Virus record (IMG/VR): IMGVR_UViG_3300009093_000134
Coordinates: 1-21,558 of that record
Direction: 5' to 3' (one strand)
DNA from: a virus
Length of the DNA: 21,558 nucleotides
Numbering within the stretch: position 1 is the first letter of the stretch; the number at the start of each line of letters is the position of its first letter. The position numbers and the translations under genes are program-made. Below the pieces are notes generated by a model. It made no database searches. It was not told where the DNA came from and saw nothing but the letters and a program-made list of their open reading frames with translations. Positions 49 to 17,942 of the stretch are shown one piece after another.

Positions 49-125
49 GGCGAGATAGCTCAGATGGTTAGAGCGTCGGATTCATAACCCGGAGGTCTCG
101 GGTTCAACTCCCGATCTCGCTACCA
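49..125 (+). tRNA. tRNA-Met (anticodon CAT)
   Basis: A full cloverleaf can be folded. The acceptor arm GGCGAGA pairs with TCTCGCT (with a G-T closing pair), the D stem is GCTC/GAGC, the anticodon loop is TTCATAA with anticodon CAT, the T arm is TCGGG-TTCAACT-CCCGA, the discriminator is A, and CCA is encoded at 123-125. The A-C at the base of the anticodon loop is the only irregular pair. CAT could also be a tRNA-Ile2 read after lysidine modification or an initiator; a paired acceptor end and general similarity favour elongator Met. The integrase directly downstream makes its 3' end the likely integration target. Confidence 0.95.
100..125 (+). other. putative attL core (3' end of tRNA-Met)
   Basis: Tyrosine integrases of prophages and islands often use the T arm and 3' end of a tRNA as attB, with the integrase gene next to that end. 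Here the integrase starts 131 bases past the CCA and reads inward. No second copy of the tRNA 3' end was found in this window, so attR should lie past the right edge. The exact crossover segment cannot be fixed from one junction. Confidence 0.4.
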
Positions 126-133
126 GTTCAAAT

Positions 134-180
134 AGCAGTGCAAAAGATTGAAATTCAGTTAATTGCACTGCTCTTTTTTT
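134..180 (+). terminator. Rho-independent terminator after tRNA-Met
   Basis: A perfect 10-bp stem AGCAGTGCAA (134-143) / TTGCACTGCT (163-172) with a 19-base loop is followed by a run of seven T (174-180). It sits 9 bases after the tRNA and would end its transcript. The loop is longer than usual. Confidence 0.8.
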
Positions 181-214
181 GAAGCTCTTGTTTTACAGTC
201 ATACAAATCGGCAC

Positions 215-239
215 AAGTGCTAGCAAAAGTGCTAGCAAA
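215..239 (+). repeat. two tandem 12-base repeats upstream of integrase
   Basis: AAGTGCTAGCAA occurs twice with a period of 12 bases (215-226 and 227-238). Each copy holds the 6-bp palindrome GCTAGC. The pair ends 18 bases before the integrase start. Short direct repeats between attachment site and integrase gene are typical arm-type integrase or excisionase binding sites, but that role is inferred. Confidence 0.6.
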
Positions 240-256
240 TCAAAAACCCATTTTGT

Positions 257-1666
257 ATGTCTAAAGCACCCAAAGAAAAGATCAAACTGCCCAACGGTTG
301 CAGTTATTCCCCCTTCGTTGTTGTCCCTCACGACTGGAAGACAGTCAAAAAAATTACACGTCCCTGGTACATCTTCTACCGCTTCTTTGACCCCATCCAC
401 AGCCCCAAAGGTCATCCGGTCATGGTCCGGGGGATGAACGGCAAAAAAGACGTTGCCGCACGCCGGGAGGCTACCCAATTACTTTATGAGCATGAGGTGA
501 AGGAACTTTTTGAAGGCAAGAACCCGGCAACCGGGGCCGAAAGTTCCACGGACCCCCTCGCAGCGGGCGCGCTCGATGAAAACGCCCCTCTCCTGGCTGC
601 CCTCCAGTGGGCCTACGAAAACTGCGGGGTCGATCCGGTCAACACCCTCCCGGACATACGGTCCATGATGAACTATATCCCCATCGCCGTCAACGCCCTG
701 GGCTATGGGTCCTTACCCATTGGCATGGTCAAAAAGAGGCAGGTGCGCCACATACTGGACCAGTGCGCCCGGATTAAATTTAGAATCGACCCCAGGAGCG
801 GCAAGAAAATTAACGTCTCCTGGTCCAACGACAAGTTTAATAAGTACCGCTCGTATTTAATGATCCTCTTTGGTGAGCTGATTGAAATTGAGGCAATGGA
901 CATGAACCCCTGCCTTAATCTCAAAAAAAGAAAGACGGTAAAAAAAATCCGCGAGACGCCGACCCAGGAGCAACTACAGATAATCGATAAATTCCTGCAC
1001 GACTACTACTATACGTTCTGGCGGTTCATGCACCTGTTTTTCCACTCCGGGGCGCGCGTTTCTGAGTTCATGCAGCTTAAAGTAAAGGATATACGGCTGG
1101 ACCCGAACGTACAAAAATTCAAACGGCTGATAAAAAAAGAGAGGACATACGTAGAGAAGCTGACCACCATAAAAGATATAGCCCGTGATTTATGGGCAGA
1201 ACAAATTGAAGGCGCCAAACCGGAGGACTACGTTTTTTCCCGCGGCCTTGTACCCGGAGCCGATCCCATCCGCGACGACCAGATTAACAAACGCTGGCTT
1301 AGACTGGTAAAAAAACGATTTGGCGTAACAGCGGATTTTTACAGCCTAAAGCACCTTAATTCTACTCAAACCAAAAAGAGGGCAGGATCTGCAGCCGCCG
1401 CAGAACAGAACGGACACCGGACCACGGACATGGTGGATACGCGCTACGACGTCGACCGGGAAGTGAACATGCATGAAACACTAAAAGGCATTAACAATCC
1501 ACTAGTCGGCAGCAACGCCCACGGATTGCGGGCCGGGTCAAATTGCACCACTATAACCCTCAATGGCCCGTTACTTCCGCCCCCACCTCCGCGAATATGT
1601 TGCAAACCTTGTCTTATTGGCAGCTTAGAACCCCTGCAATACTTCACGAGGTCAGTCGCGGCCTGA
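257..1666 (+). CDS. int: tyrosine recombinase / phage integrase
   Basis: A 469-residue integrase for site-specific integration and excision at the adjacent tRNA. Residues 1-110 look like an arm-binding region, about 110-225 a SAM-like core-binding domain, and about 230-410 the catalytic domain. Box I is HSGARVSE with catalytic R267. Box II reads YSLKH (362-366), so the usual H-x-x-R appears as Y-x-x-K, a variant known from Bacteroidota phage-type integrases. QNGH gives H387 and DTRYDV gives the nucleophile Y397. The final 55 residues, after about residue 415, are proline- and cysteine-rich, unlike the rest, and run past the point where such enzymes usually end; they may be readthrough after loss of an earlier stop. 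The gene is transcribed away from the tRNA and followed by its own terminator. Confidence 0.93.
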   Translation: MSKAPKEKIKLPNGCSYSPFVVVPHDWKTVKKITRPWYIFYRFFDPIHSPKGHPVMVRGMNGKKDVAARREATQLLYEHEVKELFEGKNPATGAESSTDPLAAGALDENAPLLAALQWAYENCGVDPVNTLPDIRSMMNYIPIAVNALGYGSLPIGMVKKRQVRHILDQCARIKFRIDPRSGKKINVSWSNDKFNKYRSYLMILFGELIEIEAMDMNPCLNLKKRKTVKKIRETPTQEQLQIIDKFLHDYYYTFWRFMHLFFHSGARVSEFMQLKVKDIRLDPNVQKFKRLIKKERTYVEKLTTIKDIARDLWAEQIEGAKPEDYVFSRGLVPGADPIRDDQINKRWLRLVKKRFGVTADFYSLKHLNSTQTKKRAGSAAAAEQNGHRTTDMVDTRYDVDREVNMHETLKGINNPLVGSNAHGLRAGSNCTTITLNGPLLPPPPPRICCKPCLIGSLEPLQYFTRSVAA

Positions 1667-1690
1667 CCCGATACAGACGCCAATGTCCTA

Positions 1691-1718
1691 AACGTGCTTC
1701 CCCAGCACGTTTTTTTTT
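1691..1718 (+). terminator. Rho-independent terminator after integrase
   Basis: A perfect 8-bp stem AACGTGCT (1691-1698) / AGCACGTT (1704-1711) with a 5-base loop runs straight into nine T. It lies 24 bases after the integrase stop and reads in the same direction. On the other strand the hairpin is not followed by T, so it should not stop leftward transcription. Confidence 0.9.
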
Positions 1719-1744
1719 GCACCTGCCTGGCCGGGCGGGGGAGC

Positions 1745-2023
1745 CTATTTTAGTGGGGAATGGTCGCGGATGTAGGCTACAGGATCTCTGAAATAAACCA
1801 CCAATTCGTTGAGTGCGTCTAATAGGTTGAGGTGCTCGCCAATGCCATACCCCCGGTCTCGCTCCGGAGAAAATGCAGCCCATTTACCTGTCTTGTTTAG
1901 CTTTATCAAAACTGATACTACAATACCGTTTTGTTCAGTCACCTCAGCCCAATAGTAGCCCCTTTTGGCGATTTGAAGATTGCCGCTTTTTAGCGGATTT
2001 TTTAAAAGTCGAAGTTTGGGCAA
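1745..2023 (-). CDS. small protein of unknown function
   Basis: A 92-residue protein, not recognised. It has no signal peptide or membrane segment. The composition looks like a real folded protein: a beta-rich middle (YYWAEV, IVVSVLIKLN, KWAAFSP) and a helical C-terminal part (LLDALNELVVYF). It starts with TTG if the full reading frame is used; there is no good ATG near the N terminus. A TAATTTTG promoter-like box lies just upstream at 2043-2050, supporting separate transcription. It is convergent with the integrase. An inverted repeat CCGCT/AGCGG followed by T's on the plus strand lies inside the coding region at about 1982-2003, probably by chance. The start is uncertain. Confidence 0.5.
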   Translation of the reverse strand: MPKLRLLKNPLKSGNLQIAKRGYYWAEVTEQNGIVVSVLIKLNKTGKWAAFSPERDRGYGIGEHLNLLDALNELVVYFRDPVAYIRDHSPLK

Positions 2024-2042
2024 GCTGAGGTAAATATTTACC

Positions 2043-2050
2043 CAAAATTA
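2043..2050 (-). promoter_or_regulatory. Bacteroidota-type -7 promoter box
   Basis: Read on the minus strand this is TAATTTTG, an exact match to the TAnnTTTG -7 consensus of Bacteroidota sigma factor. It lies 20 bases before the start of the 92-residue gene ending at 1745. No clear -33 TTG partner is seen, so it is only a candidate. Confidence 0.35.
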
Positions 2051-2091
2051 AGCACTTTTTCAGTTTCTAGCTGCGTGAGTGATATTGCCAA

Positions 2092-2700
2092 TTAGGAAAT
2101 ATCATAGCTGAGGGCCAATTGGAATAGCTCTATCTCATTGTCCGTCCCAGTCTTCTCAAATATTCTCCTTTTCAATGTCGATACGCTCCCTTGTGCCTCG
2201 TCTCTCCTTACCGCGATTTCTTTTGTGCCCTTTCCCTCAAGCATGTAATTTAACACCGCGTGCTCTGCTTCCGTTAGTTTAGAAAACGGATTTGAAAAGT
2301 CTCTTGATATCTTATGTCTAGGATAGGGCTCATTGTTTAAAAATCTTCTTATAAAATCTCGCATTTCGTCATCTGTTGCCGTTTTAGTTAGATAATACTC
2401 AATTCCAAATTTCATCAAAGGTTTTTGATAAATATCCGGACGGTTCATTGAAATTATAGCGATACTAATTTCCGGATTTATTTTTTTTATGAATGAAAGT
2501 TTCTCCAAAATAATTCCATCTGTCAATTTAAGATCAAATAAACCATGCGTAATTTCGCCGCGGTGTACCGTCAGTACTTTCAATATGCTTGAAAGCGATT
2601 CCGCCTCCATGACGTCGGAGTATCCAAGAGATTCTATTATGCCGATGATCCCATTTCTAATTAATGCATGGTCATCGGCTACAAGGATTTTTCTTTCCAT
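2092..2700 (-). CDS. LuxR/NarL-family response regulator
   Basis: A 202-residue two-component response regulator. The receiver domain covers about residues 1-120: acidic pair D9-D10 in VADDHAL, phospho-acceptor D56 in FDLKLTDG, a conserved hydroxyl position at S83 (IISMN) and the conserved K105 (YYLTKTA). A LuxR/NarL-type winged four-helix HTH follows at about 140-195 (KLTEAEHAVLNYMLEGKGTK...GSVSTLKRRIFEKTG). The ATG at 2700 is chosen because the protein then begins MERKILVADDH, as the family usually does; a TTG at 2709 would add three residues and overlap the terpene synthase stop. It is the last gene of the unit, five bases after the terpene synthase, and is the obvious partner of the kinase two genes upstream. 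Its DNA targets are unknown; this operon is a natural candidate. Confidence 0.9.
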   Translation of the reverse strand: MERKILVADDHALIRNGIIGIIESLGYSDVMEAESLSSILKVLTVHRGEITHGLFDLKLTDGIILEKLSFIKKINPEISIAIISMNRPDIYQKPLMKFGIEYYLTKTATDDEMRDFIRRFLNNEPYPRHKISRDFSNPFSKLTEAEHAVLNYMLEGKGTKEIAVRRDEAQGSVSTLKRRIFEKTGTDNEIELFQLALSYDIS

Positions 2701-2705
2701 AATGC

Positions 2706-3680
2706 TCAATTTTCGTATATATGCGGGTATCGAGAAGTTATTTTAGTAGACCATACAATGTTTCCCTTCATAAAGTGACGAAGGCAATCAATGAATCTGC
2801 CCACCATAATGTTCGTGTTTCTATCGAATTGCGTCGCCGTTTCAGCAATGCTAATAAATTCCTTTACCTGAGTGTCATGGATTGCGGCAACTTCCATTAT
2901 TGCATCTTCAATTGAAAGATTATGCTTTCTTTTAATTATTGAAACGAGGTTAAACTCTGAAGCAATTCCCGCTCCCTGCGCCATTTCCTTTCCAAGAGAA
3001 AACAAATCATTTGCGAAACAAACAGTATTCCTGGCGATCTCAGTTAGTTTCCGAACACTTGGAGAGTTATATACGACCTCTTCAAGCTGTACCTTGCCTG
3101 TCACTTCCAAGGATTCAGTAGCTAAGTTGGCCGCACCAAGATACTGACGAATGGAAATATATTCTTGCATATCAGGTAATTGGTTGTTCACGACGTGCCG
3201 AAATTGCCACATGCCGCCTTCAAATGTATCCTTTATGCCTTGAATAAATTTTTCCTTCCAAACTGCGCTGCTTCGTAGTTGCATTCGCTGCCAAAAGTCA
3301 TCTAGTGCCGCCAATACTGGGCCATCTTTTTTGATTGTACAACGCCGTCCTCTTTCAACTACATCCAATAGCCCATCTACAAAGTTTGAAAAGGCCTTTT
3401 TGTCTGTAATGATCTCCTTTTCGTCGAGATTGTCATCTACTATAAATAAGAGGGTGTTGAGATCGCACCATGCCGCAAGGTCAACGTATTCACCATATGG
3501 ATAACTCATCGCTATCATTGATCCAAATTTCTGTTTCTTATACTTATCGAGCATTTCGACGGAATCGATCAATCCAAAGTCCATGATCCATTGATCCGTG
3601 TGTTCTTGTATAGCTTCGCTATCTGGATGACTTATAGATTCAAATGGGCAGTAAAGCCGAGGAATGCTGTACAGCTTCAT
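2706..3680 (-). CDS. class I terpene synthase (terpene cyclase)
   Basis: A 324-residue soluble all-alpha terpene synthase that would ionise and cyclise a linear prenyl diphosphate (FPP most likely from its size, GPP or GGPP possible) in the cytoplasm. All diagnostic motifs are visible: the aspartate-rich motif VDDNLDE with D82, D83, D86 and E87; the NSE triad NDLFSLGKE with N224, S228, K231 and E232; the pyrophosphate-sensor arginine R178, exactly 46 residues before N224; and the C-terminal RY pair R317-Y318. The length fits bacterial sesquiterpene synthases, which run about 310-350 residues. No prenyl diphosphate synthase or tailoring P450 is nearby, so substrate must come from host isoprenoid metabolism. 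It lies 22 bases after the histidine kinase and is followed within 5 bases by the response regulator, so all three are probably co-transcribed. The product cannot be read from the sequence. Confidence 0.93.
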   Translation of the reverse strand: MKLYSIPRLYCPFESISHPDSEAIQEHTDQWIMDFGLIDSVEMLDKYKKQKFGSMIAMSYPYGEYVDLAAWCDLNTLLFIVDDNLDEKEIITDKKAFSNFVDGLLDVVERGRRCTIKKDGPVLAALDDFWQRMQLRSSAVWKEKFIQGIKDTFEGGMWQFRHVVNNQLPDMQEYISIRQYLGAANLATESLEVTGKVQLEEVVYNSPSVRKLTEIARNTVCFANDLFSLGKEMAQGAGIASEFNLVSIIKRKHNLSIEDAIMEVAAIHDTQVKEFISIAETATQFDRNTNIMVGRFIDCLRHFMKGNIVWSTKITSRYPHIYEN

Positions 3681-3702
3681 AATAGGAAAGGTTTATTAGA
3701 CG

Positions 3703-5112
3703 TTAATTTACAACGTCTGGATGCACTTTAACTGCACTATTGTTATTTCCCCTGTCTTTAGCATTGCTCGAAGTCAGATTTTGAACTATGGGAATATAGA
3801 CTGAAAAAGTACTTCCTACTCCCACTGTGCTTTGCAATTCAATTTTCCCGTTTAGGGCTTTTATAAGCGTTTTTGCCGTGGGTAGACCCAATCCAGACCC
3901 CTCAATATTGTCGCTATTTCTTGCTGTCACAAATTGCTCAAATATTGACTCTTGATTCTCTGGCGCGATGCCCTCACCTTCATCTTTAATTGACACCTTC
4001 CAGTAGGTATTATTATATTTCTCAATCTTAAGTATGACTTGAGTACTTTCTCGTGTGAATTTGATTGCGTTATGCAAAATGTTGCCAACAATCTGATTTA
4101 TTTTAAAACGATCACCGTGTATATATTCGGGTATATCATTTGAAGGCATAAAGACGATGTTTACTTTCTTTCGGCTAGCCTCAAACTGATTTGATGTTAC
4201 CAGTCCGCCGAGAACTTTATTCAGATTAAACGGTTCGTATAATGGCGTTTCTATTACGCCTGCCTCTCCTTTCGCAAAATTCAGAACATTAATCATTACC
4301 ATATCAACGACCTCGATTGCCCGGACTATGCTGCCCAATTTCTCAGCAATGACAGGTATGTTTTGTATTCTGCTATCATTAGCAAGAACAGAAAGCCCCA
4401 ATTTAACGCCCCTAAATTGATTTTTAACCTCATGCGATGCAATTCGAATAATCTTACTCTTATTAATACTTATTTGCGTTTCTTCTTCTAAACTTCTCTG
4501 TACTTTCCGAGTATGAGCGTTTTGTTTTGCAAGCAACCTATTATAATTAATATCAAATAAATGGAATAGCTTCGCTTCCAAGAAAATTATTATACTGATA
4601 GCCGCCCAACGCATAGCGTATGTTACAATAGAAAAACTTCGAGAAGTTCGGAGCACATTCAGTACAAAATAGATTTCCAATATTACTACCAAAAGGATTG
4701 TGGTAGTAATGAAAAAGATTCTCCGCTTCCTTGATCGAAATAAGAAGAAAGCAAGACCCACCATCAATACGATCATCATTTCCGCTTCTACGGTTGGGCC
4801 TAAGCTGAAGCCGAAATAGAATGTTGCTATCTGTAAAACTATGTAAAATGAGAGTTTGGCAAGTTCTCTTTTATTCCTGGAGTTTAGCCATATAATGCCG
4901 AAAACTAAAAAGGCCTCGACTAAACTACCCCACAAAACGGGCGTCTTCTTGCTGGCGAAGTAAAACCCAGGTCCAGCAAATATGTTTATTAAGCCTATCG
5001 CAGCGCAGAGAATGTTTATTCCTTTTGTAACGCCCAAGGCTAAGTCGTCGTCCTTTATTTCATCGGTACCGGCATACGTAATCTTCAGCCACAAGTCTCT
5101 AAGTATCTGCAT
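3703..5112 (-). CDS. membrane sensor histidine kinase
   Basis: A 469-residue two-component sensor kinase. The N-terminal half (about residues 30-190) holds roughly six hydrophobic helices and no recognisable extracellular sensor domain, so the signal is probably sensed in or at the membrane. A coiled linker leads to a HisKA-like domain with the phospho-acceptor H227 in IASHEVKNQFRG. The HATPase_c domain follows: N box with N344 and N348 (GNILHNAIKFT), G1 box DEGEGIAPE (377-385), F box around FEQFVTA, and G2 box GSGLGLPTAK (405-414). No receiver domain is attached, so phosphate would pass to the separate regulator encoded after the terpene synthase. The start is an ATG; a promoter-like box lies 38 bases upstream. 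Confidence 0.93.
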   Translation of the reverse strand: MQILRDLWLKITYAGTDEIKDDDLALGVTKGINILCAAIGLINIFAGPGFYFASKKTPVLWGSLVEAFLVFGIIWLNSRNKRELAKLSFYIVLQIATFYFGFSLGPTVEAEMMIVLMVGLAFFLFRSRKRRIFFITTTILLVVILEIYFVLNVLRTSRSFSIVTYAMRWAAISIIIFLEAKLFHLFDINYNRLLAKQNAHTRKVQRSLEEETQISINKSKIIRIASHEVKNQFRGVKLGLSVLANDSRIQNIPVIAEKLGSIVRAIEVVDMVMINVLNFAKGEAGVIETPLYEPFNLNKVLGGLVTSNQFEASRKKVNIVFMPSNDIPEYIHGDRFKINQIVGNILHNAIKFTRESTQVILKIEKYNNTYWKVSIKDEGEGIAPENQESIFEQFVTARNSDNIEGSGLGLPTAKTLIKALNGKIELQSTVGVGSTFSVYIPIVQNLTSSNAKDRGNNNSAVKVHPDVVN

Positions 5113-5149
5113 ATGGTAAGGTTTCTTACTCTTATTACGCAGAATACCC

Positions 5150-5157
5150 CAAACCTA
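5150..5157 (-). promoter_or_regulatory. candidate promoter of kinase-terpene synthase-regulator operon
   Basis: On the minus strand the sequence is TAGGTTTG, an exact TAnnTTTG -7 match, inside the 81-base gap between the HTH gene and the kinase. It would give a leader of about 30 bases before the kinase ATG. A TTG lies 11 bases upstream, closer than the usual -33 spacing, so the promoter may be weak or activator-dependent. Confidence 0.45.
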
Positions 5158-5193
5158 ACTAATACAGCCAATTATGATAAAAATCTGAATTGT

Positions 5194-5484
5194 TTACTTA
5201 CCGTATTTCTTACGATCTGGCTTTTTCGTATCAATTTGATTGTGAATCAATTGAGATATGCTAATAGGCGGTACGTCAATAATTTTCGCAAGAGATTGAG
5301 TAAATTCGTACCTCAATTTTTTAGGATTTCCCGTATTCCTTACGAAAGTCTTATAATTAATGCCCATTCTTTTAGACGCCTCAGTTTTCGGAATATAGAG
5401 GAAAATATCCTTGAAATTTGTCAAGAATTTAGATTCTATCAGATTCTTAAGAATGTTTATCCGTTCTTCCTGGTCCTTAGGCAT
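5194..5484 (-). CDS. small HTH-like DNA-binding protein
   Basis: A 96-residue protein beginning MPKDQEERINILKNLI. Its centre (FKDIFLYIPKTEASKRMGINYKTFVRNTGNPKKL) has the look of a helix-turn-helix in which an AxxxGINYxTF stretch forms the recognition region, a pattern common in small Bacteroidota regulators of unnamed family. The ATG at 5484 is preferred over a TTG at 5517, which would add 11 residues that look unlike the family start. It reads the same way as the kinase operon 81 bases downstream. Two direct repeats and a 22-bp palindrome lie just upstream and could be its operators. Function is unproven. Confidence 0.7.
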   Translation of the reverse strand: MPKDQEERINILKNLIESKFLTNFKDIFLYIPKTEASKRMGINYKTFVRNTGNPKKLRYEFTQSLAKIIDVPPISISQLIHNQIDTKKPDRKKYGK

Positions 5485-5536
5485 TCCCAAATTTGCGGGG
5501 AAGATGTTAAAAATCAATGACCTACCCCATTTAACT

Positions 5537-5570
5537 ACCTAATATGGGCATAAATATGACCCAACATGGG
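5537..5570. promoter_or_regulatory. paired 12-bp direct repeats, operator-like
   Basis: ACCTAATATGGG (5537-5548) and ACCCAACATGGG (5559-5570) match at 10 of 12 bases and lie exactly 22 bases apart, about two helical turns, on the same face of DNA. They sit upstream of the HTH gene that ends at 5194. Such spacing is typical of binding sites for a dimeric activator or repressor; the protein is unknown. Confidence 0.45.
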
Positions 5571-5597
5571 ACATTTTCTGGGATATACAACCCGATT

Positions 5598-5619
5598 TTT
5601 GTATAATTAATTATACAAA
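5598..5619. promoter_or_regulatory. 22-bp perfect palindrome
   Basis: The half-site TTTGTATAATT is followed at once by its exact reverse complement, giving a 22-bp palindrome with no spacer. It lies in the 340-base gap between the leftward HTH gene and the rightward exported-protein genes, so it could be an operator controlling one or both directions. It is AT-rich, so some symmetry is expected by chance, but 11 matched pairs is long. Confidence 0.5.
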
Positions 5620-5638
5620 TCCGTACCGAAGAACTCTT

Positions 5639-5646
5639 TATTTTTG
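5639..5646 (+). promoter_or_regulatory. -7 promoter box before 67-bp repeat copy 1
   Basis: TATTTTTG matches TAnnTTTG exactly and ends 3 bases before the first copy of the 67-bp repeat. At the same offset before the second copy (8315-8322) the sequence is TAACTTAA, keeping the TAnnTT part. This suggests that transcription starts at or near the left end of each repeat. Confidence 0.4.
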
Positions 5647-5649
5647 GAT

Positions 5650-5716
5650 TCTAATAGGATAAGGTTTAATGGTTATGGTATTTGATTAGTGCATCCCCGC
5701 CTCAAGCGGGGATTTT
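5650..5716 (+). repeat. 67-bp direct repeat, copy 1 (possible small RNA with terminator)
   Basis: This segment matches 8326-8392 at 66 of 67 positions; the only difference is T5681 versus C8357. The right end is a Rho-independent terminator: stem ATCCCCGC (5693-5700) / GCGGGGAT (5706-5713), loop CTCAA, then T's. The left part can form a CTAAT (5651-5655) / ATTAG (5685-5689) stem. With the -7-like box just upstream, the unit looks like a short RNA of about 65 bases, though it could also be a leader/attenuator or a recombination repeat. The remainder of the 5485-5825 gap (5717-5825) shows only a small TCTAC/GTAGA hairpin near 5773. Confidence 0.65.
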
Positions 5717-5825
5717 ACCTAGAAAGTTCCCATTTATTATAATTACGCCGCTTTGGAAATTAGCAGCCCTTCTACTATGGTAGAGGCCCCGCCGCTGAGA
5801 TCCGTGAAGCGAAATCCATGACAAA

Positions 5826-6275
5826 ATGAAACTCTTATTTCTTCTGCCTCTTTGCGGGGCGCTATTTTCTCAATGTCAAGCGCAAACAAGCCTTTTGGAA
5901 CAAATACGAACTGAACTGACGAAGTTGCCGGTAGAACTCCATGCCAAATGCGATGTCAATTTTTCGGATTCCTGGGAACCCGGTAAAAAAGTCGTCGAAA
6001 TAACGATGGAGTTGGACTCGACTAAAATGAGTATGAACCCCAAAAACGTGTCACATGCTAAAGAGATTGAAAAAATAATTGCAGGACGCATTCATGCTCA
6101 ATTCCTAAAGAAAAACGACATTTTTAACGGTATTGCAATAGCCATAGAGTGCGGCAAGTATGAAGTGAGAAATTTAATATTAATTAAACCGGACGGACTC
6201 TACTATATGAATGACGATCACACTACTGAATATTTTACCATCAAGGCCGACGACATACCCGCCACAGTGAACTAA
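5826..6275 (+). CDS. exported protein of unknown function
   Basis: A 149-residue protein, not recognised. It begins with a signal peptide: MKLLFLLPLCGALFSQ gives a hydrophobic core, with likely cleavage near CQAQ. FSQC has glutamine before the cysteine, so it is a poor lipobox, but a lipoprotein cannot be excluded. The mature part is mixed alpha/beta with two further cysteines (AKCDV, IECGK) that could pair in the periplasm. It ends with an acidic, beta-rich tail (DGLYYMNDDHTTEYFTI). The next gene, also membrane-anchored and outward-facing, follows closely, so the two may act together. Nothing shows what they do; surface modification or superinfection exclusion would fit a lysogen cargo but is speculation. 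Confidence 0.7.
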   Translation: MKLLFLLPLCGALFSQCQAQTSLLEQIRTELTKLPVELHAKCDVNFSDSWEPGKKVVEITMELDSTKMSMNPKNVSHAKEIEKIIAGRIHAQFLKKNDIFNGIAIAIECGKYEVRNLILIKPDGLYYMNDDHTTEYFTIKADDIPATVN

Positions 6276-6318
6276 ATTCACAAGAACTTTAATGTTATTT
6301 GACCTTATCCAAATTTGT

Positions 6319-6942
6319 ATGCGCCCGAAAACTATTCTAATTGCCATCTTGGCAATCTTAGCGATCACACCCTCTGCAATCATTTATATGGCTTCAATGT
6401 TTTTCTCTGCCCAGTCAAAAGACAAAAGGTTACATTATGTTTCCGGCGCCAACATACACCTGGCGAATGGTACTCTAGTAGTAAATGCCTGTAGGGAAGA
6501 CGTGCAAATAATAAAGAAAGATACGGTTTGGGCCGCTACTGTCTATTACATAAACGGGCGCAGCCACAACCCGCTGGACACGACAAACTATTCACCCGCG
6601 GTCGATACAATATATCATTCATATATGAATTTCCTAATCGATAACAACCAGGTTAAGCCAAGGTTAAATACCGACGAGAAAAGAATAGCCTACGCGGAAA
6701 GAAAACACTTCAGGACATTTTGTTTTAAGGTCGATTCCGCTTTTGAATACTGCATCAGTCTTAAAACAAATCAAAATTTTATAATCCACAACCCAATTAG
6801 TAACGCGTATATTTCTCCGATGCCGCCTAACCACAAGAATGGTTGGGTTAGAATATTTGCACCGGGCGGCTTTTGGCGAGGTGATACCCTTGAGTTGGAA
6901 AACAATTTCTTTCAAATGTCTCCTACGATTATTAAAAAATGA
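6319..6942 (+). CDS. membrane-anchored protein of unknown function
   Basis: A 207-residue protein from the ATG at 6319; an upstream ATG at 6292 would add nine residues (MLFDLIQIC). The later start puts the charged MRPK directly before the single hydrophobic helix (about residues 5-27, ILIAILAILAITPSAIIYMASMFF), as usual for a signal anchor. The remaining 175 residues would be periplasmic, with beta-rich segments and three cysteines. No family is recognised. It follows the exported protein with 43 bases between and is probably co-transcribed with it. A terminator-like hairpin follows. Confidence 0.65.
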   Translation: MRPKTILIAILAILAITPSAIIYMASMFFSAQSKDKRLHYVSGANIHLANGTLVVNACREDVQIIKKDTVWAATVYYINGRSHNPLDTTNYSPAVDTIYHSYMNFLIDNNQVKPRLNTDEKRIAYAERKHFRTFCFKVDSAFEYCISLKTNQNFIIHNPISNAYISPMPPNHKNGWVRIFAPGGFWRGDTLELENNFFQMSPTIIKK

Positions 6943-7003
6943 CATACTAAAATATGTTACGTCGGTCTTTTATGGCCGACAGGTCTAAAAAAACAGGATA
7001 AAA

Positions 7004-7031
7004 AAACCCTAGCTATTCATAGCCAGGGTTT
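7004..7031. terminator. hairpin terminator after exported-protein genes
   Basis: AAACCCT (7004-7010) pairs with AGGGTTT (7025-7031) and an inner GCTAT/ATAGC stem extends it, with one A-C mismatch and a 2-base loop. A's precede and a T-rich stretch follows, so it could work in both directions. A second small hairpin GTCGGTC/GGCCGAC lies just before it at 6961-6980. Confidence 0.6.
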
Positions 7032-7071
7032 CATTTTAGAACCGAATCATCTAACTAACATTAAACCATAC

Positions 7072-7299
7072 ATGAAAATAAATTCCCCCTCAATTATCGA
7101 CGTCCTTTACCGCAGGATCATAGGTTTGCCGAAATGGAGAGACAAAAAAATACTAAGGAGGTGGCTAGCTTACTCGCAAGACAACAAGGAACTTTTGCAC
7201 GAGCTCGAGGATAATGAAACTTTTAATTCGGATTGGAAAAGATTCAATGAAATAGATATTGAAGTTCGTTGGCAAGCTCTTAAAGATCGGTGCGCCTAA
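7072..7299 (+). CDS. FecR N-terminal-domain-like small protein
   Basis: A 75-residue protein. The stretch LRRWLAYSQDNKELLHELED and the later NEIDIEVRWQALKDR resemble the N-terminal cytoplasmic helical domain of Bacteroidota FecR anti-sigma factors (W-L...S..N..L...L.D...  then D...AW..LK.R). The membrane helix and periplasmic FecR domain that normally follow are missing; the stop comes where the helix would begin. It may be a decayed remnant or a free-standing anti-sigma-like domain that binds an ECF sigma factor. No sigma factor gene is in the window. The similarity is from pattern recognition only. Confidence 0.5.
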   Translation: MKINSPSIIDVLYRRIIGLPKWRDKKILRRWLAYSQDNKELLHELEDNETFNSDWKRFNEIDIEVRWQALKDRCA

Positions 7300-7352
7300 A
7301 AATGGTCCTCCGCCGCCGTTCAAGCATACGGAAACAAAACATGACATAAAAA

Positions 7353-7685
7353 ATGAGTTCCCAGGTAGATCCGCGACTAATAGCTAAGTTCAAAAAAGAT
7401 AGAGCCCGTCTCTTATACAACGACATAGCAATATGCAAGAGAATGGGGGTTGATAGATCCAATTACAGTAAAGCGGTAAATCAGGGCCCTATAACGAATA
7501 ACTTTCTAAAAAAGTTCTATGATGCCTTTGGCGAAGAACTAAGGCAAATAAAAACAAATGCAAAATTACCGACCAACAAACGGATCGAGGAGTTGGAGAG
7601 CAGGGTTGCAAACCTTGAGCAATTTTTCCGAACAACGCAGGCGATCTTTACCTTAGTACCTGGCGAAAATCGACAACAGAGCTAA
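7353..7685 (+). CDS. small HTH protein with coiled-coil tail (paralogue 1)
   Basis: A 110-residue protein. Residues 8-60 (LIAKFKKDRARLLYNDIA, then CKRMGVDRSNYSKAVNQG) look like an XRE/Cro-type helix-turn-helix, with MGVDRSNYSK as the recognition region. Residues about 70-92 (NKRIEELESRVANLEQFF) form a heptad coiled coil for oligomerisation. The next gene encodes a clear paralogue: KFKKDR/RFHNDR, MGVDRSNYS/MGMDRSNYS, PITNNFLKKFYDAF/PITKGFLHRFYKIF. The pair looks like a tandem duplication of a phage-type regulator. Targets are unknown. Confidence 0.75.
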   Translation: MSSQVDPRLIAKFKKDRARLLYNDIAICKRMGVDRSNYSKAVNQGPITNNFLKKFYDAFGEELRQIKTNAKLPTNKRIEELESRVANLEQFFRTTQAIFTLVPGENRQQS

Positions 7686-7729
7686 GAAAAAAAGGCGTAA
7701 AAACAATATTCTATATCGCATTATCTCCC

Positions 7730-7981
7730 ATGAGCAATAGAGCCGATATTGACAGCGTTACCCGATTTCACAATGACAGGCAGTTCTTGCAGTATAACAA
7801 TACTTATATCGCAAGCGCAATGGGTATGGATAGGTCAAACTACAGTAGCTATGTCAATGGTCATCTACCAATTACAAAGGGATTCTTACATCGATTTTAC
7901 AAAATCTTTGACCCTGAAATTCAATCGGTTAAAAGAGAGAGAGAGCGATGCAGAGACATTCGGAAGAATATATCGAATTAA
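7730..7981 (+). CDS. small HTH protein (paralogue 2), tail out of frame
   Basis: An 83-residue protein whose first 68 residues are clearly paralogous to the preceding 110-residue HTH protein (DRSNYS, PIT.. FLHRFYKIF). After a GA dinucleotide run (7935-7945) the frame gives RERERCRDIRKNISN, with no coiled coil. The expected coiled-coil tail is present in the -1 frame at 7948-8058. Removing one GA unit would join them into a 108-residue protein, nearly the length of the paralogue. The gene is therefore either frameshifted, phase-variable at the GA run, or expressed as two products. Confidence 0.7.
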   Translation: MSNRADIDSVTRFHNDRQFLQYNNTYIASAMGMDRSNYSSYVNGHLPITKGFLHRFYKIFDPEIQSVKRERERCRDIRKNISN

Positions 7982-8058
7982 ATGACAGGTTGATTGCGTT
8001 GGAAAAAAGACTAGCGCAAATCGAAAAAAGAGCCCCACGTAGACAACGCGGGGCGTAA
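7948..8058 (+). other. out-of-frame coiled-coil tail of the second HTH protein
   Basis: Reading from ATG 7948 gives 36 residues, containing YIELNDRLIALEKRLAQIEK, a heptad pattern that lines up with NKRIEELESRVANLEQFF of the first paralogue. It is shifted by -1 relative to the 83-residue frame and overlaps it by 34 bases. Its position and similarity make it the lost tail rather than an independent gene, though translation from its own ATG is possible. Confidence 0.6.
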
Positions 8059-8170
8059 TTATTACAATTAAAAAAAATAATAGCTTACCGACTAGCTGTG
8101 TCAGGTAAAATATTGTTGTGTAAAACCGGGTGAAAATTACAGATATTATCCAATTTCCCCAAATAAATGG

Positions 8171-8241
8171 ACTAACGCCGTATTTGCCTACACCAATCCA
8201 AATACAGAATAAACGTTTATCCGTTGCAATACGGCGTTAGT
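8171..8241. repeat. 14-bp inverted repeat with 43-base loop
   Basis: ACTAACGCCGTATT (8171-8184) is repeated as its exact reverse complement AATACGGCGTTAGT (8228-8241). The loop contains a 12-bp palindrome ATAAACGTTTAT (8209-8220). No T run follows either arm, so it is not a typical terminator. It lies in the non-coding stretch 8059-8450, which otherwise holds only the second 67-bp repeat. It may be a protein-binding site, an RNA hairpin, or a replication or recombination signal. Confidence 0.6.
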
Positions 8242-8325
8242 ATAGTGTTTCCTGCACTTAATCAGCAGTGAGAAATATTCTGTATAAATATTTCCTTGTA
8301 TAAAGCAAAACTGGTAACTTAAAAG

Positions 8326-8392
8326 TCTAATAGGATAAGGTTTAATGGTTATGGTACTTGATTAGTGCATCCCCGCCTCAAGCGGGGATTTT
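8326..8392 (+). repeat. 67-bp direct repeat, copy 2 (possible small RNA with terminator)
   Basis: This is the second copy of the 5650-5716 repeat, 2,676 bases away, with one mismatch (C8357). It carries the same terminator (ATCCCCGC 8369-8376 / GCGGGGAT 8382-8389, then T's to 8393). Upstream are a TTG at 8296-8298 and TAACTT at 8315-8320, separated by 16 bases, a possible Bacteroidota promoter. A plus-strand gene begins 58 bases after it, as one does 109 bases after copy 1. Confidence 0.65.
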
Positions 8393-8450
8393 TCTTTGGT
8401 TACCTCAAAGGTAATTACGTAGTTTTTATTTCTTCCTTAAACTCTAAAAT

Positions 8451-8813
8451 ATGATGAAACGAGACCAGCCAATACCTTTCGAAGAGTGCATTCTGCGCAG
8501 TGAAGTAAATGAGGCATTTACCATAACTACGGAACTTCACCCTACCGATTTTACCCTTATCATAACTCAGGCCCACAACATGGAAATTTTCAGCCCCATG
8601 CATCTAACGGCGAGCCAAAAATCTAACTGCTTTCTGGTTATTACCATTTCCGATATTCGCATTTCGGATATTGATACCAATACTGATTTTGATGAGGATG
8701 AGGACGAGGATGAAATACTCTGTTTCTCCCTTTCGAAACCAAACCTTAAACACTTTATAGACTTTTTGCAAGAAAGATATGAGACCATGAAAGAACACTG
8801 CCCTCCCTATTGA
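8451..8813 (+). CDS. small acidic protein of unknown function
   Basis: A 120-residue soluble protein, not recognised. The middle carries a run of alternating Asp and Glu at about residues 79-88, encoded by a GATGAG-type repeat near 8690-8715. Before it is a beta-rich region (FTLIITQ, CFLVITISDIRIS) and after it a helical end (LKHFIDFLQERYETMKEH). It follows the second 67-bp repeat and is convergent with the endolysin gene, 19 bases away, with no clear terminator between. The acidity could suggest a DNA mimic or inhibitor, but nothing direct supports this. Confidence 0.6.
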   Translation: MMKRDQPIPFEECILRSEVNEAFTITTELHPTDFTLIITQAHNMEIFSPMHLTASQKSNCFLVITISDIRISDIDTNTDFDEDEDEDEILCFSLSKPNLKHFIDFLQERYETMKEHCPPY

Positions 8814-8832: not shown

Positions 8833-9462
8833 CTAAAGTTGAACCAGGCAATACGTAATATGGTCCTGCCTGTACTTGTCAATTGCCCCATATCCCGCCG
8901 CGCGTTCACCCTCCCACACGTCGGATAACCAGGTTTGGCAACCTTCCGAACTGGTAGTATAGTGGCCGCCCTTGTGCAGGTCGATGAACGGCCATTTCCC
9001 TGGGTTCTTCTCTGTCTCCGTTGTTGCCGCGCCGTGGCGCTGGATCGTGACAGGCCCGGCCTGTCTGAATGCCCAGTAGGGCAAAATTCGGGGTCTCTCG
9101 CCCGCTCCCATTACCGGAGGGTGGTCTTTCATCGGGTTGGCCAAGAGCCAACTGTAAATATTTCTATCCTCGGGACAAACATAAGTCCCGTCTTTCCTTT
9201 GGGTGAGGTTTAAGTGATGGACGCCATGTAGTCCCTTCTTATACCGGTATACTCCGGGCATCAGCTTTGCAATACCGCCTTCCCACTTGCTCGGCAGGGT
9301 ATTGAATTTGTGGCTGCTCTCGGTATAGCCGTCCGGGGTATAAAGTCCTATACTATCGTCATACTCTCCGTATTTGCTATTTGCGGATCTACAGGCAATC
9401 CAGGCTATCGGGTCTTTTACCCCGTGGTCGGCGAGTATCTTCGCCGCTTGTTCTTTCGTCAT
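8833..9462 (-). CDS. probable phage endolysin (L,D-transpeptidase-like SxGC protein)
   Basis: A 209-residue protein from ATG 9462 (MTKEQAAKIL). The upstream in-frame extension is rejected because it would run deep into the previous gene; the chosen start gives an ATGA overlap of four bases. Its C-terminal half has FIDLHKGGHYTTSSEGCQTW, with H163, the SSEGC turn at 171-175 and C175, resembling the H...SxGC active site of YkuD-type L,D-transpeptidase folds found in phage lysis proteins. There is no signal peptide, so it would need a holin. It is the last gene of the late operon, next to holin-like and spanin-like genes, which supports peptidoglycan cleavage at lysis. The exact bond cut is not known. 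Confidence 0.65.
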   Translation of the reverse strand: MTKEQAAKILADHGVKDPIAWIACRSANSKYGEYDDSIGLYTPDGYTESSHKFNTLPSKWEGGIAKLMPGVYRYKKGLHGVHHLNLTQRKDGTYVCPEDRNIYSWLLANPMKDHPPVMGAGERPRILPYWAFRQAGPVTIQRHGAATTETEKNPGKWPFIDLHKGGHYTTSSEGCQTWLSDVWEGERAAGYGAIDKYRQDHITYCLVQL

Positions 9463-9866
9463 AGTGAAAAATTGAGAACGTTTAGAGCAATAAGTAGCGC
9501 CAGAAAAACGGAACTTTTTAATACTGCCCCGTTGATCCCAAAAATCCGGGCCGCGATTTTGTCGAATCTCGCGGTACCGCCGAGGTAGTGAATTGAAAGC
9601 CCGGCCCACTTATTAAATGCCAGGTCGAACAATGACAGCCGAACCAGCGCGGCGGATACCAGCACTTTCCACCATAAGGCCGGATGCCATGCCGCTAACG
9701 GCAGGAGGTAGAGAATGAACAACGTTACCCCGTCCCGATGCCACCGCTTAACCCTCCCTGCAGAAAGGTTATTATCCTGCCGGTCCTTTAGCTGATATGA
9801 ATCCGCGTCCTTACCGGCAAGGAAAAGGACACAGATAATCAGGTAGACTTCAAAAATGTAAATCAT
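9459..9866 (-). CDS. phage membrane protein of unknown function
   Basis: A 135-residue protein with hydrophobic segments at about residues 3-17, 48-75 (LFILYLLPLAAWHP, WWKVLVSAALVRLSLF) and 115-133 (VFLALLIALNVLNF). The basic stretch between the first two would be cytoplasmic or periplasmic. It lies between a three-helix membrane protein and the endolysin, which it overlaps by four bases. Location suggests a lysis-associated or late membrane role; no family is recognised. Confidence 0.7.
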   Translation of the reverse strand: MIYIFEVYLIICVLFLAGKDADSYQLKDRQDNNLSAGRVKRWHRDGVTLFILYLLPLAAWHPALWWKVLVSAALVRLSLFDLAFNKWAGLSIHYLGGTARFDKIAARIFGINGAVLKSSVFLALLIALNVLNFSL

Positions 9867-9870
9867 TGGC

Positions 9871-10185
9871 TTAATTAATTTGACGCTGATAAACTAAAGA
9901 CCCCCATACGCATACCCAAAGCACAATAGCGACCGCCGATAACACCACTCCCGCGGTCTTTGAATCTTCGTAGTCTTCAAAAGTCGCCACCCAAAGAATT
10001 TGAGCCCGGTAGACATAAAGAGCCAGCAAAAAGACGTTCACCGCGATAAAAACCCAATTGGTGTAACTCGCATGATAGGCCGGAAAAATGAAGCCTACAC
10101 ATTGAATTGCGATAATCGCCAGTGCTGACAATACTACCGTCCAGTGGTCGCCTTTGCGCTGGACCGTTCCGAAATCGTTTGACAT
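9871..10185 (-). CDS. small three-helix membrane protein
   Basis: A 104-residue protein with three predicted membrane helices (about residues 15-35, 43-61 and 80-98) and an acidic loop FEDYEDSK. It sits in the lysis cluster between the spanin candidate and another membrane protein. Size and topology would allow a class I holin, but two other holin-like genes are upstream, so the assignment stays open. Confidence 0.65.
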   Translation of the reverse strand: MSNDFGTVQRKGDHWTVVLSALAIIAIQCVGFIFPAYHASYTNWVFIAVNVFLLALYVYRAQILWVATFEDYEDSKTAGVVLSAVAIVLWVCVWGSLVYQRQIN

Positions 10186-10191
10186 GATTTA

Positions 10192-10752
10192 TTACAGTTT
10201 GATGATTTGAAATTTCCTATTTACTCGATAGGCGAGAAAAACCATAGCCGCCACGACTACCAGCCACGCCCACCACGGAAAGACAACACGTTTCGTTTCC
10301 TTGTCCTTCACGCTTTCCGTTGTGGCTACCTCGGCCGCGGTCTTGCTCCGGGCGCTCCCTGTATCCGTGCTTACGGAATGCCCCGAGCTATCCGAGACAC
10401 TACCGATGTGTATTTGCAATTTCGCCGGAGTCCCGGCCGCCGTGATTGCGTTTTGGATAAGTAAGGCATACTGACCAATTTTGCTACTTGGCGGCTTTCC
10501 AGGGCCGACCGGCGCGTTAAGAATCGCCGCCGTTCCCGGATCTACCCGGCAACGCGCAGAATCATACCAGACGGTAATATCTACGTCCTTCGCGCTAAAA
10601 TCATCGGATAGCTCGGAGCGTGTGGATTTATAGGACGAATCCCGATAGACTGAGTAGGAGCTATCCGTTGTCTTTGTTGCCGTGTGTGTCGTTTTCTGAA
10701 CCGTACCGCAGGAGGTCACCAGAACCCACGCAGCAATTATTAATTTCTTCAT
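10192..10752 (-). CDS. probable unimolecular spanin (lipoprotein plus C-terminal membrane helix)
   Basis: A 186-residue protein. The start MKKLIIAAWVLVTSC is a lipoprotein signal with lipobox VTSC and lipidated C15. A Ser/Thr-rich periplasmic part of about 140 residues follows, then one strong membrane helix at about 157-176 (FPWWAWLVVVAAMVFLAY) and a short basic cytoplasmic tail. A lipid anchor at one end and an inner-membrane helix at the other is the architecture of u-spanins such as phage T1 gp11, which fuse inner and outer membranes in the last step of lysis. It lies between holin-like genes and the endolysin. No sequence family is recognised, so the call rests on topology and position. 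Confidence 0.65.
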   Translation of the reverse strand: MKKLIIAAWVLVTSCGTVQKTTHTATKTTDSSYSVYRDSSYKSTRSELSDDFSAKDVDITVWYDSARCRVDPGTAAILNAPVGPGKPPSSKIGQYALLIQNAITAAGTPAKLQIHIGSVSDSSGHSVSTDTGSARSKTAAEVATTESVKDKETKRVVFPWWAWLVVVAAMVFLAYRVNRKFQIIKL

Positions 10753-10778
10753 TTCACTTATTAAAGAGTTTTGGGGAT

Positions 10779-11027
10779 TTACTTTTGTTCGGGTGCCTGG
10801 TCCGCGGGCGTCGTTACCCCTTTTGAGGAGCCGAAGTAATACCCGTACACGCCAGTAAATCCGGAGCCGAATACGAAACCAACCGCCACGTTTAAAACGT
10901 CCTTATTGCCCGCCGGAATCTCTTTAATGAGCATCAGGTAAAGGAGAATGAAACCGCCAAGAGTAGTGACTATAGCCAAGGCGTTACGGATCTCAGCCGC
11001 GCCAATATGATCGAACAGTTTTTTCAA
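10779..11027 (-). CDS. holin-like small membrane protein
   Basis: An 82-residue protein with two membrane helices: about residues 16-35 (LAIVTTLGGFILLYLMLI) and 44-67 (VLNVAVGFVFGSGFTGVYGYYFG). It ends in a charged tail (ADQAPEQK). The GxxxG-rich second helix with the GYYFGSS end is familiar from small holin-like proteins of prophages. It overlaps the preceding 71-residue membrane protein by four bases and precedes the spanin candidate, as expected in a lysis cassette. Confidence 0.65.
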   Translation of the reverse strand: MKKLFDHIGAAEIRNALAIVTTLGGFILLYLMLIKEIPAGNKDVLNVAVGFVFGSGFTGVYGYYFGSSKGVTTPADQAPEQK

Positions 11028-11239
11028 TTTTTCTTATTTAAGGTTGACTTGATCTTTTTAATACACCAGGCCCCTGTCAGCTTGCCGAAATAGCCGAGCA
11101 ATCCGCCCATAAACGCCAGAGACAAGGAGGCGACAATCTTGATGATAATATCGCCCCACGAAATATTTATCCATCCAAACCCAACCCCGGCAATTCCCAA
11201 CGCCCAGGAAAACAGGTCGCCAATAATTCTATGGTTCAT
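11024..11239 (-). CDS. small membrane protein, possible holin partner
   Basis: A 71-residue protein with two hydrophobic segments (about residues 9-25 and 33-57, the latter glycine-rich: SLAFMGGLLGYFGKLTGAW) and a lysine-rich C terminus. It is translationally coupled to the following holin-like gene (four-base overlap), so the two may form a holin/antiholin or two-component holin pair. No family is certain. Confidence 0.6.
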   Translation of the reverse strand: MNHRIIGDLFSWALGIAGVGFGWINISWGDIIIKIVASLSLAFMGGLLGYFGKLTGAWCIKKIKSTLNKKN

Positions 11240-12025: not shown

Positions 12026-13057
12026 TCAGTATTTGAGTAATGGAAGTTTGCCGATATTTTCGACAATGTTTTTAGTGCCGTCGTTGTCGCTGGTCCTCAT
12101 ACTCAAGTCGGGGGAGCCTTGTTTGCCCCCGAAGCCATCCGAGCCCCCGCCAGCCGCGTACCGGTTCCCAAACAACACGGATAGAAACCATTGAAACCCT
12201 GCGCCGAGAATAGGCCCCTTGCCGTGGGTAGCGTGGTCGTGCTTTCCTACCATTTCATCTTCAAAACTGCCAACACGGCTAGAAAAGCGGAACAAATCGC
12301 GGCCCCTTCCGAGGTCCATATATTTATCCATCATCCCGCGCTCGTCCGGTATCCGTAGATTTGTTGTACCGTTGCCGGTACTGAAGAGACCGCGCCAAAC
12401 CGGTTTACCACCGGGGTCACTCAACCACGACCCGTCATCAACGACCGCGGGGCCTCCTGCAACAACGATCAAGGCAATCCGGGGCACGTCGGCACGATTG
12501 ATAAGCGAACCATCCATAACTAGCGTATTGCCGCGCTGTATCCGTGCGCCGTAGCTATCCCCATAGGTGTAGAAATTGCCGTCTGCCCGCTCGACGATAA
12601 AGTGATCCCCGGCCGCTACAAGTACTAGTTTTTCGGCGTCATGCATATACATACCGGGCTGGCTCGTATCCCACGTCAACCAGGACGTAATGCCGTCTAC
12701 AATGGGCTGCCCGTGTTGTGACAGCACCGTCAACGCTTTTACCCCAGTTATGGACGTTGCAATAGGTATGCGTGTGCCTACCGCCAAATTCCCGGCATCA
12801 GGTAGAACGAGCGTTGTATTTGCCGCAACCTGCGCGACTGTGAATTGCCCAAGGTCTCCAACCGGATCCAGCGTATAATTACCGGTAATCACCTTTATCC
12901 CTTCCCATCGGCGCAGCCGATTGCGTAGGTAGTTCGTTTGGTCCGCCAGGGCTTTGAGGGGTGTATTGGCGTCGCCAGTAGCTCCACCCTGTACAAGATC
13001 GGACAGGTCGTATAGCTCCGGAGTAGTGAATATGTCAAGAGGTGCGTACGCCGTCAC
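12026..13057 (-). CDS. phage tail fibre / collar-domain protein
   Basis: A 343-residue receptor-binding fibre candidate. The N-terminal part (LSDLVQGGATGDANTPLKAL then DQTNYLRNRL) is an attachment region common in Bacteroidota tail proteins. The middle is beta-rich. The C-terminal part carries a tail-collar-like domain: PVWRGLFSTGNGTTNLRIPDERGM, with HDHATHG after it, typical of metal-binding loops near fibre tips. GTG is the start and overlaps the upstream gene's stop as GTGA. It is preceded by tail genes I and the DUF3751-like gene, the position of fibres in P2-like phages. Confidence 0.85.
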   Translation of the reverse strand: MTAYAPLDIFTTPELYDLSDLVQGGATGDANTPLKALADQTNYLRNRLRRWEGIKVITGNYTLDPVGDLGQFTVAQVAANTTLVLPDAGNLAVGTRIPIATSITGVKALTVLSQHGQPIVDGITSWLTWDTSQPGMYMHDAEKLVLVAAGDHFIVERADGNFYTYGDSYGARIQRGNTLVMDGSLINRADVPRIALIVVAGGPAVVDDGSWLSDPGGKPVWRGLFSTGNGTTNLRIPDERGMMDKYMDLGRGRDLFRFSSRVGSFEDEMVGKHDHATHGKGPILGAGFQWFLSVLFGNRYAAGGGSDGFGGKQGSPDLSMRTSDNDGTKNIVENIGKLPLLKY

Positions 13058-13383
13058 GATAATTTAATTTTATAACCAAGAGAATAAACTACACCAGAAA
13101 CCGTAGTTACCGGCGTAATAACCTGGCGGTAGCATAGGACGCCCGCGGCGTTCACCAGGCCCATTTCCCGGACAGTAATTGCCGGATCGCTGGCGGCTAT
13201 CTGCGCATTAAATTGGATATAGCCTCCGGCCAAAATGTTTGTGCTTATAACGGCCTTTGAGACCTGACCGGTTAAAGCCGTTTCTGCGCCTGTCACCGGA
13301 CTGCCATCCGTGCCTAAGACAATGGCCGTAAAGTAGGTAGCTAATACCCCCTCTATGCCTGTAATCCCATTATTAGTTACCAT
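13054..13383 (-). CDS. tail-collar fibre N-terminal-like protein (DUF3751-type)
   Basis: A 109-residue protein. The pattern YIQFNAQIAASDPAITVREM then GLVNAAGVLCYRQ matches the core of the DUF3751 tail-collar fibre domain (Q.....TIREIGL.D..G.L). In P2-type phages this domain is the N-terminal, baseplate-attached part of fibre protein H. Here it is a separate protein, with the fibre encoded by the next gene in a GTGA overlap, so the two may form one fibre complex. Confidence 0.75.
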   Translation of the reverse strand: MVTNNGITGIEGVLATYFTAIVLGTDGSPVTGAETALTGQVSKAVISTNILAGGYIQFNAQIAASDPAITVREMGLVNAAGVLCYRQVITPVTTVSGVVYSLGYKIKLS

Positions 13384-13384
13384 T

Positions 13385-16066: not shown

Positions 16067-16113
16067 CCGGAGGCGTAGTCTTTGGGCAAAGTATGGGGCA
16101 AGTTTGTGATTTG

Positions 16114-17690: not shown

Positions 17691-17693
17691 GTG

Positions 17694-17942
17694 TTATTGT
17701 TTCCAGGGCGGCAGACTGTTAGCCGCAATTGGCAAAACGGTGGACGGAATGATGGGAATTTGCAGGAGGATACCGGCGTCCAATATGTCGGCCCGCGCGA
17801 CGTCCGGATTATTTTGCATTATATGGGCCATCGCGTTTACCTGCGTCCCGTCCCCTAAGACAATATTATCAAAAGTGCCGTACGCCTTTCCCGCTATCAG
17901 GTCCCACCTGTCCCCCGGTCGGGTGATATATTCGCTTGTCAT
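17694..17942 (-). CDS. X: tail protein X (LysM-like)
   Basis: An 82-residue protein of the P2 gpX type: YITRPGDRWDLIAGKAYG at the start and NPDVARADILDAGILLQIP in the middle form the small LysM-like tail fold. P2 gpX is about 67 residues. It is encoded between U and D, exactly as in P2. Confidence 0.85.
   Translation of the reverse strand: MTSEYITRPGDRWDLIAGKAYGTFDNIVLGDGTQVNAMAHIMQNNPDVARADILDAGILLQIPIIPSTVLPIAANSLPPWKQ

Follow-up and report, generated by a model that had tools for sequence, protein, structure and literature searches.

A terpene synthase within a two-component operon as apparent cargo of temperate contractile-tail phages

We describe an operon in which the gene of a class I terpene synthase (TS) lies between the genes of a histidine kinase (HK) and a response regulator (RR), and which is a real, conserved, and apparently undescribed cargo of phages. 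The analyzed stretch of DNA (the window) is an entire IMG/VR virus record of 21,558 bp and not a slice of a chromosome. The components of the operon are ordinary, whereas their combination and their carrier are not. The operon occupies a prophage position, its motifs are intact, and its gene order is conserved, under purifying selection, in a second prophage. We consider it fairly probable that a temperate contractile-tail phage uses these genes for lysogenic conversion, as a moron operon; terpene synthesis would then be under the control of a two-component system encoded by the phage.

Phage context of the operon

A flank of 48 bp at the left end of the window is followed by tRNA-Met, a tyrosine integrase, the HK–TS–RR operon, and then lysis and contractile-tail genes. 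A tRNA and, behind it, an integrase gene pointing in the direction away from the tRNA are what the left end of a tRNA-inserted prophage usually shows. The features of the window are as follows.

49–125, plus strand: tRNA-Met (cat), probable attachment site, attL side (ARAGORN; Rfam tRNA, 65 bits)
257–1666, plus: tyrosine integrase (Pfam PF00589, 2.6e-8; PHROG 1 integrase, 1.8e-21)
1690–1712, plus: intrinsic terminator behind the integrase, 9-bp stem and T-run
1745–2023, minus: small ORF 3' of RR, not homologous to the ORF at the same place in the second prophage
2092–2700, minus: LuxR/NarL-type RR, receiver and GerE HTH (Response_reg, 2.9e-11; GerE, 2.7e-7)
2706–3680, minus: class I TS, 324 aa, all catalytic motifs kept (PF19086)
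3703–5112, minus: HK, six membrane helices, no sizeable extracytoplasmic domain (HATPase_c, 7e-24)
5194–5484, minus: small HTH-like gene (Cro/C1-type) heading the conserved block of four genes, with its ORF open to 5517
12026–21335, minus: contractile-tail module (PHROG matches; J homologous to phage baseplate J; relatives)
12026–13057, minus: tail-fiber-like protein
13385–14020, minus: tail protein I
14013–15116, minus: baseplate J
15116–16066, minus: baseplate W
16114–16686, minus: spike V
16683–17690, minus: tail protein D
17694–17942, minus: LysM-type protein
17939–18829 and 18829–19485, minus: tail-module ORFs without a name
19482–21335, minus: tape measure, at the right end of the window

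The HK, TS, and RR genes are arranged head-to-tail on the minus strand, and the gaps of 22 nt (HK–TS) and 5 nt (TS–RR) that the earlier note had read as one transcript are confirmed, the latter assuming that RR starts at the ATG at 2700; if the TTG at 2709 served as the start instead, RR would overlap with the stop codon of TS. Such spacing supports one tight operon, from which the genes would be co-transcribed. The earlier note overlooked the phage context, namely, that the operon is temperate-phage cargo adjoining an integrase and a tRNA.

A chromosomal operon was ruled out, as the window comes from a virus and integrase–tail synteny encloses the operon. A chimeric assembly was ruled out by the identical gene order in an independent record. 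All compared records are metagenomic fragments; the window stops at the tape measure, and the complete set of capsid and packaging genes was seen only in a relative without the synthase (IMGVR_UViG_3300047472_000431; 48,879 bp), a full-length myophage. The host phylum is probably Bacteroidota, judging from TAnnTTTG-like promoter boxes and the general character of the genes. A PADLOC search gave no defense match. Two adjacent paralogous small ORFs on the plus strand (7353–7682 and 7730–7981) look HTH-like by eye and share the motif FKKDR/FHNDR...MGxDRSNYS.

Conservation of the block in a second prophage

A scan with tail protein D identified a second prophage (IMGVR_UViG_3300010375_000059, with coordinates in the numbering of the stretch read). 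Its tail proteins I, J, V, and W share 60–74% identity with their counterparts in the window. The PF19086 profile matches a synthase in this record as well (E 1.4e-39), and the order of transcription is HTH-like gene, HK, TS, and RR, and then a small ORF. Its features are as follows.

5057–5371: HTH-like gene
ending at 6805: HK
6891–7886: TS
7879–8496: RR
9387–10880, on the strand opposite to the operon: integrase
10993–11064, on the strand opposite to the operon: tRNA-Gln

Conservation of the three-gene order had been set beforehand as a check, and the order holds in this one diverged relative. Since it recurs in a second, diverged record, the arrangement is not a matter of chance. The conserved unit is a four-gene block (HTH-like, HK, TS, RR), of which the upstream gene at 5194–5484 had previously been overlooked, and its known carriers are these two prophages only. 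The HTH-like proteins are 31% identical over 86 aa (E 1e-11), and the one from the second prophage has a weak HTH_26 match (E 0.0015), under the cut-off. The two carriers use different attachment tRNAs (tRNA-Met vs. tRNA-Gln) and different integrases.

The identity between the two prophages is 48% for TS, 37–38% for RR, and 31% for HK. At codon positions 1, 2, and 3, respectively, identical nucleotides constitute 57, 69, and 36% in TS, 45, 58, and 33% in HK, and 51, 61, and 39% in RR. The third positions are near saturation and the catalytic residues are all kept; hence, this comparison of coding sequences indicates that purifying selection has maintained the module and a working enzyme.

The GC content of HK, TS, and RR is 38–41%, compared to 50–55% in most tail and structural genes, as expected for cargo. 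The relative without the synthase encodes terminase, portal, head protease/capsid, sheath, baseplate, and ParB proteins, as well as an orthologous integrase (47% identical to that of the window, compared to 32% for the integrase of the second prophage). A DNA methyltransferase gene adjoins this orthologous integrase, and no synthase was found in the relative with PF19086. This relative shows the backbone to be that of real temperate myophages, in which the operon is a variable piece of cargo. PF19086 is absent from all 27 other phage records examined, including this relative, and 14 of these 27 records gave no match to the HK alignment, a negative that counts as weak without a positive control. 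The operon is situated between integrase and tail module and is absent from these other phage records, as is characteristic of temperate-phage cargo.

Secreted or lipoprotein-like ORFs adjoin the operon in both prophages (5826–6942 in the window and 157–4741 in the second prophage), one of them, at 2005–2814 in the second prophage, having FecR domains. The cargo region of the relative without the synthase encodes a protein (4976–5839, stretch numbering) that is patatin-like by eye and has no PHROG match. Directly upstream of the HTH-like gene of the second prophage (4975–5055) are two direct repeats of 38 nt (79%). They contain a palindrome, AAGCCTATTATAGGCTT, and look like an autoregulatory operator. 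An inverted repeat of the window (5598–5619) differs from these repeats and occupies the same place.

The terpene synthase

The TS is assigned to PF19086 with E 4.7e-35. In type I bacterial cyclases, the consensus comprises DDxx(x)D/E, the NSE triad, an Arg 46 residues upstream of it, and a C-terminal RY pair (PMC5082573). All class I motifs claimed in the earlier note are present and match this consensus: DDNLDEKE at 82 (D82-D83), R178, NDLFSLGKE at 224 (N224-E232), and RY at 317 (R317-Y318), with R178 exactly 46 residues ahead of the triad. The synthase of the second prophage has DDFFD for DDNLD and retains both the R-46-NSE spacing and RY.

An AlphaFold2 model, built from two sequences, was too poor to use (pLDDT 38); the sequence match to solved class I folds is strong. 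The closest solved or named enzymes, all of them distant, are synthases of the sesquiterpenes (+)-T-muurolol, 10-epi-cubebol, and isoafricanol, and hence the product is probably a sesquiterpene. Against the NCBIfam equivalogs for isoafricanol, selinadiene, 4-epi-cubebol, and delta-cadinene, the TS stays far below every trusted cut-off, scoring at best 142.9 bits where 500 are required. As the similarity to characterized enzymes is low, substrate and product are not fixed by sequence; some enzymes of this class from Chitinophagaceae are diterpene synthases (PMC12723471).

The kinase and the response regulator

The HK has six hydrophobic helices within residues 24–178, in agreement with the six-helix kinase proposed from the initial reading. 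Residues 206–442 align with solved HK catalytic cores, and the H-box (ASHEVKNQF), N-box (NILHNAIKF), and G-boxes are recognizable by eye; H227 is retained in both prophages. The AlphaFold2 model of the HK was again too poor to use (pLDDT 51). In the RR, D56 and K106 are invariant between the two prophages. By their predicted domains, the proteins qualify as a two-component system, with an H-box and ATPase core in the HK and a phospho-acceptor Asp and output domain in the RR. The description of the pair as dedicated stands insofar as HK and RR are co-conserved neighbors in two prophages only; they appear dedicated, and would be cognate partners.

A candidate small RNA and the TS leader

Both prophages contain two copies each of a 42-nt block, CTAATAGGATAAGGTTTAATGGTTATGGTATTTGATTAGTGC, on the strand opposite to the operon, and each of these copies is followed by its own, different terminator hairpin and T-run. 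A TAnnTTT-like box is found at a fixed distance ahead of the block. A fifth copy was observed in a Mu-like phage, and within the block one base varies among the five. The elements and the TS leader are as follows.

5651–5714, plus, window: sRNA-like element, copy A, 42-nt near-invariant block with terminator hairpin and T-run
8327–8391, plus, window: sRNA-like element, copy B, one substitution in 42 nt
4926 and 9228, minus, second prophage: sRNA-like element
8523 (stretch numbering), plus, Mu-like phage: sRNA-like element, fifth copy
3682–3694, minus, window: 13-nt TS leader AAACCTTTCCTAT, directly ahead of the ATG, identical in the second prophage (6878–6890)

No Rfam family matches the element. 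Its 19-nt core, ATAGGATAAGGTTTAATGG, occurs in 21 IMG/VR stretches, in many of them with its own terminator. The conservation of the block with its terminators makes an unlisted sRNA family of (probably Bacteroidota) phages likely. In three stretches, the core lies directly beside tRNA genes in phage tRNA arrays, with a hairpin behind it.

The TS leader is complementary to the core of the element with one bulge. By duplex energy, the TS start regions rank second and third of 44 gene starts, and approximately 1% of shuffles do equally well. In four element-bearing loci, AAACCTT was found within 25 nt of the ATG of 3 of 68 ORFs (0.3 expected). These observations are suggestive of pairing between the putative sRNA and the TS leader, which we treat as a lead and not as a result. 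In a further 17 loci with the element, the data did not support AAACCTT leaders as general targets of the sRNA (2 observed vs. 0.7 expected), and the TS leader alone stays suggestive.

Rarity and comparison with known systems

A single-sequence search of IMG/VR viral contigs with the TS gave no close relatives, and INPHARED tblastn gave no match; PLSDB matches were limited to 23–27% identity. A scan of 2.9 million viral contigs with the motif FAND-x-[FY]-S-xx-KE yielded the second prophage as the sole match. Such scans would miss phage synthases with other motifs, and chromosomal relatives are outside their reach. Bacterial genome contigs scanned with TS or baseplate J patterns gave nothing, the scans being insensitive and the patterns few. 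By titles and abstracts, the literature combining "terpene synthase" and "prophage" concerns other subjects, and no publication describing a phage TS was found. To our knowledge, and within the reach of our search, a terpene synthase is not on record for any bacteriophage.

The TS shares its fold family, by sequence, and its catalytic motifs with bacterial sesquiterpene synthases, including (+)-T-muurolol synthase (PDB 9hqd), 9m25, 10-epi-cubebol synthase (7zrn), and isoafricanol synthase (NF041624). Unlike these known class I enzymes, it is phage-borne and flanked by HK and RR rather than by P450 or prenyltransferase genes. In Nostoc punctiforme, a TS is reportedly clustered with a P450 and a hybrid two-component protein (work by Agger from 2008); there, too, a TS lies next to a two-component protein, but the cluster is chromosomal, with a hybrid kinase and a P450. 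The best PDB match of the RR is DesR (4ldz). The DesK/DesR system resembles the present one in its LuxR/NarL-type RR and in a kinase that is embedded in the membrane and has no outer domain of any size; however, the HK core of the window aligns with HisKA-type kinases, and DesK/DesR have no terpene synthase.

The prophage biosynthetic genes reported by Dragos and coworkers are reportedly mostly bacteriocin-type clusters. Specialized-metabolite genes are known as prophage cargo (Dragos et al., 2021, cited in PMC10023795); both they and the TS are prophage cargo, but here the gene is part of a two-component operon. A survey of actinobacterial prophages has no mention of terpenes. A terpene synthase is encoded in the genome of a giant virus (Jung et al., 2023, cited in PMC12797696), and it is the sole viral one encountered in the literature. 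The likeness consists in a TS in a viral genome, whereas the host of the giant virus is eukaryotic and a two-component context is not known there.

Proposed function and alternative explanations

Under the favored lysogenic-conversion reading, the prophage would express the four genes between the integrase and the tail module as a single unit. Its six-helix HK would sense a membrane or envelope cue and phosphorylate the co-transcribed LuxR-type RR, which most likely would control its own operon, so that TS would be produced solely in response to the cue. The enzyme would cyclize host farnesyl diphosphate (or GGPP) into a terpene, a kind of compound that is often scent-like. This product may change the chemistry of the lysogen as a volatile, as a membrane compound, or as a signal. 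Promoters elsewhere could be the targets of HK and RR, and expression of TS could be constitutive.

The block may instead be a passing bacterial cassette, i.e., an HK–TS–RR cluster from chromosomes of the host phylum acquired independently by two phages. Its low GC content is consistent with this, as is the greater divergence of the cargo (31–48% identity) compared to the tail genes (60–74%); moreover, the integrase of the relative without the synthase is closer to that of the window than is the integrase of the TS-bearing prophage, and hence the distribution of the block does not simply follow that of the integrase. Yet in both carriers the block has the same place and orientation relative to the integrase, with the HTH-like gene included, and no chromosomal copy was seen in the weak genome scans; we give independent acquisition a modest chance. 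An output directed at phage biology itself, e.g., envelope-stress sensing for induction with the terpene incidental or acting on the host membrane, would fit a block that adjoins the integrase and is headed by an HTH-like regulator, with operator-like repeats upstream in the second prophage. However, no protein of the block is better conserved than TS (48%), which keeps all motifs and is therefore not incidental; we regard such an output as unlikely.

Sensing of the product by the kinase itself was already considered speculative when first proposed. The membrane-embedded HK would detect the terpene made by its own or a neighbor's TS, providing an arbitrium-like population or kin signal. Six membrane helices without a sizeable outer domain suit a lipophilic ligand, and both prophages have the synthase gene placed between those of sensor and regulator. 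On the other hand, conservation among the three proteins is lowest in HK (31%, vs. 48% for TS), and many intramembrane HKs sense the state of the membrane and not a small molecule; we regard self-sensing as quite improbable. A complete phage terpene circuit, in which lysogens would make and sense a diffusible terpene or membrane effect and the sRNA may tune TS translation, is a long shot.

Should the lysogenic-conversion operon encode an active enzyme, TS would add terpenes to the repertoire of lysogenic conversion and would give terpene synthases a horizontal path from one bacterium to another. Both the role of two-component systems in prophages and phage manipulation of volatile communication in soil communities would then become testable. 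Phages may thus alter the products or signaling of their hosts in a way not described before.
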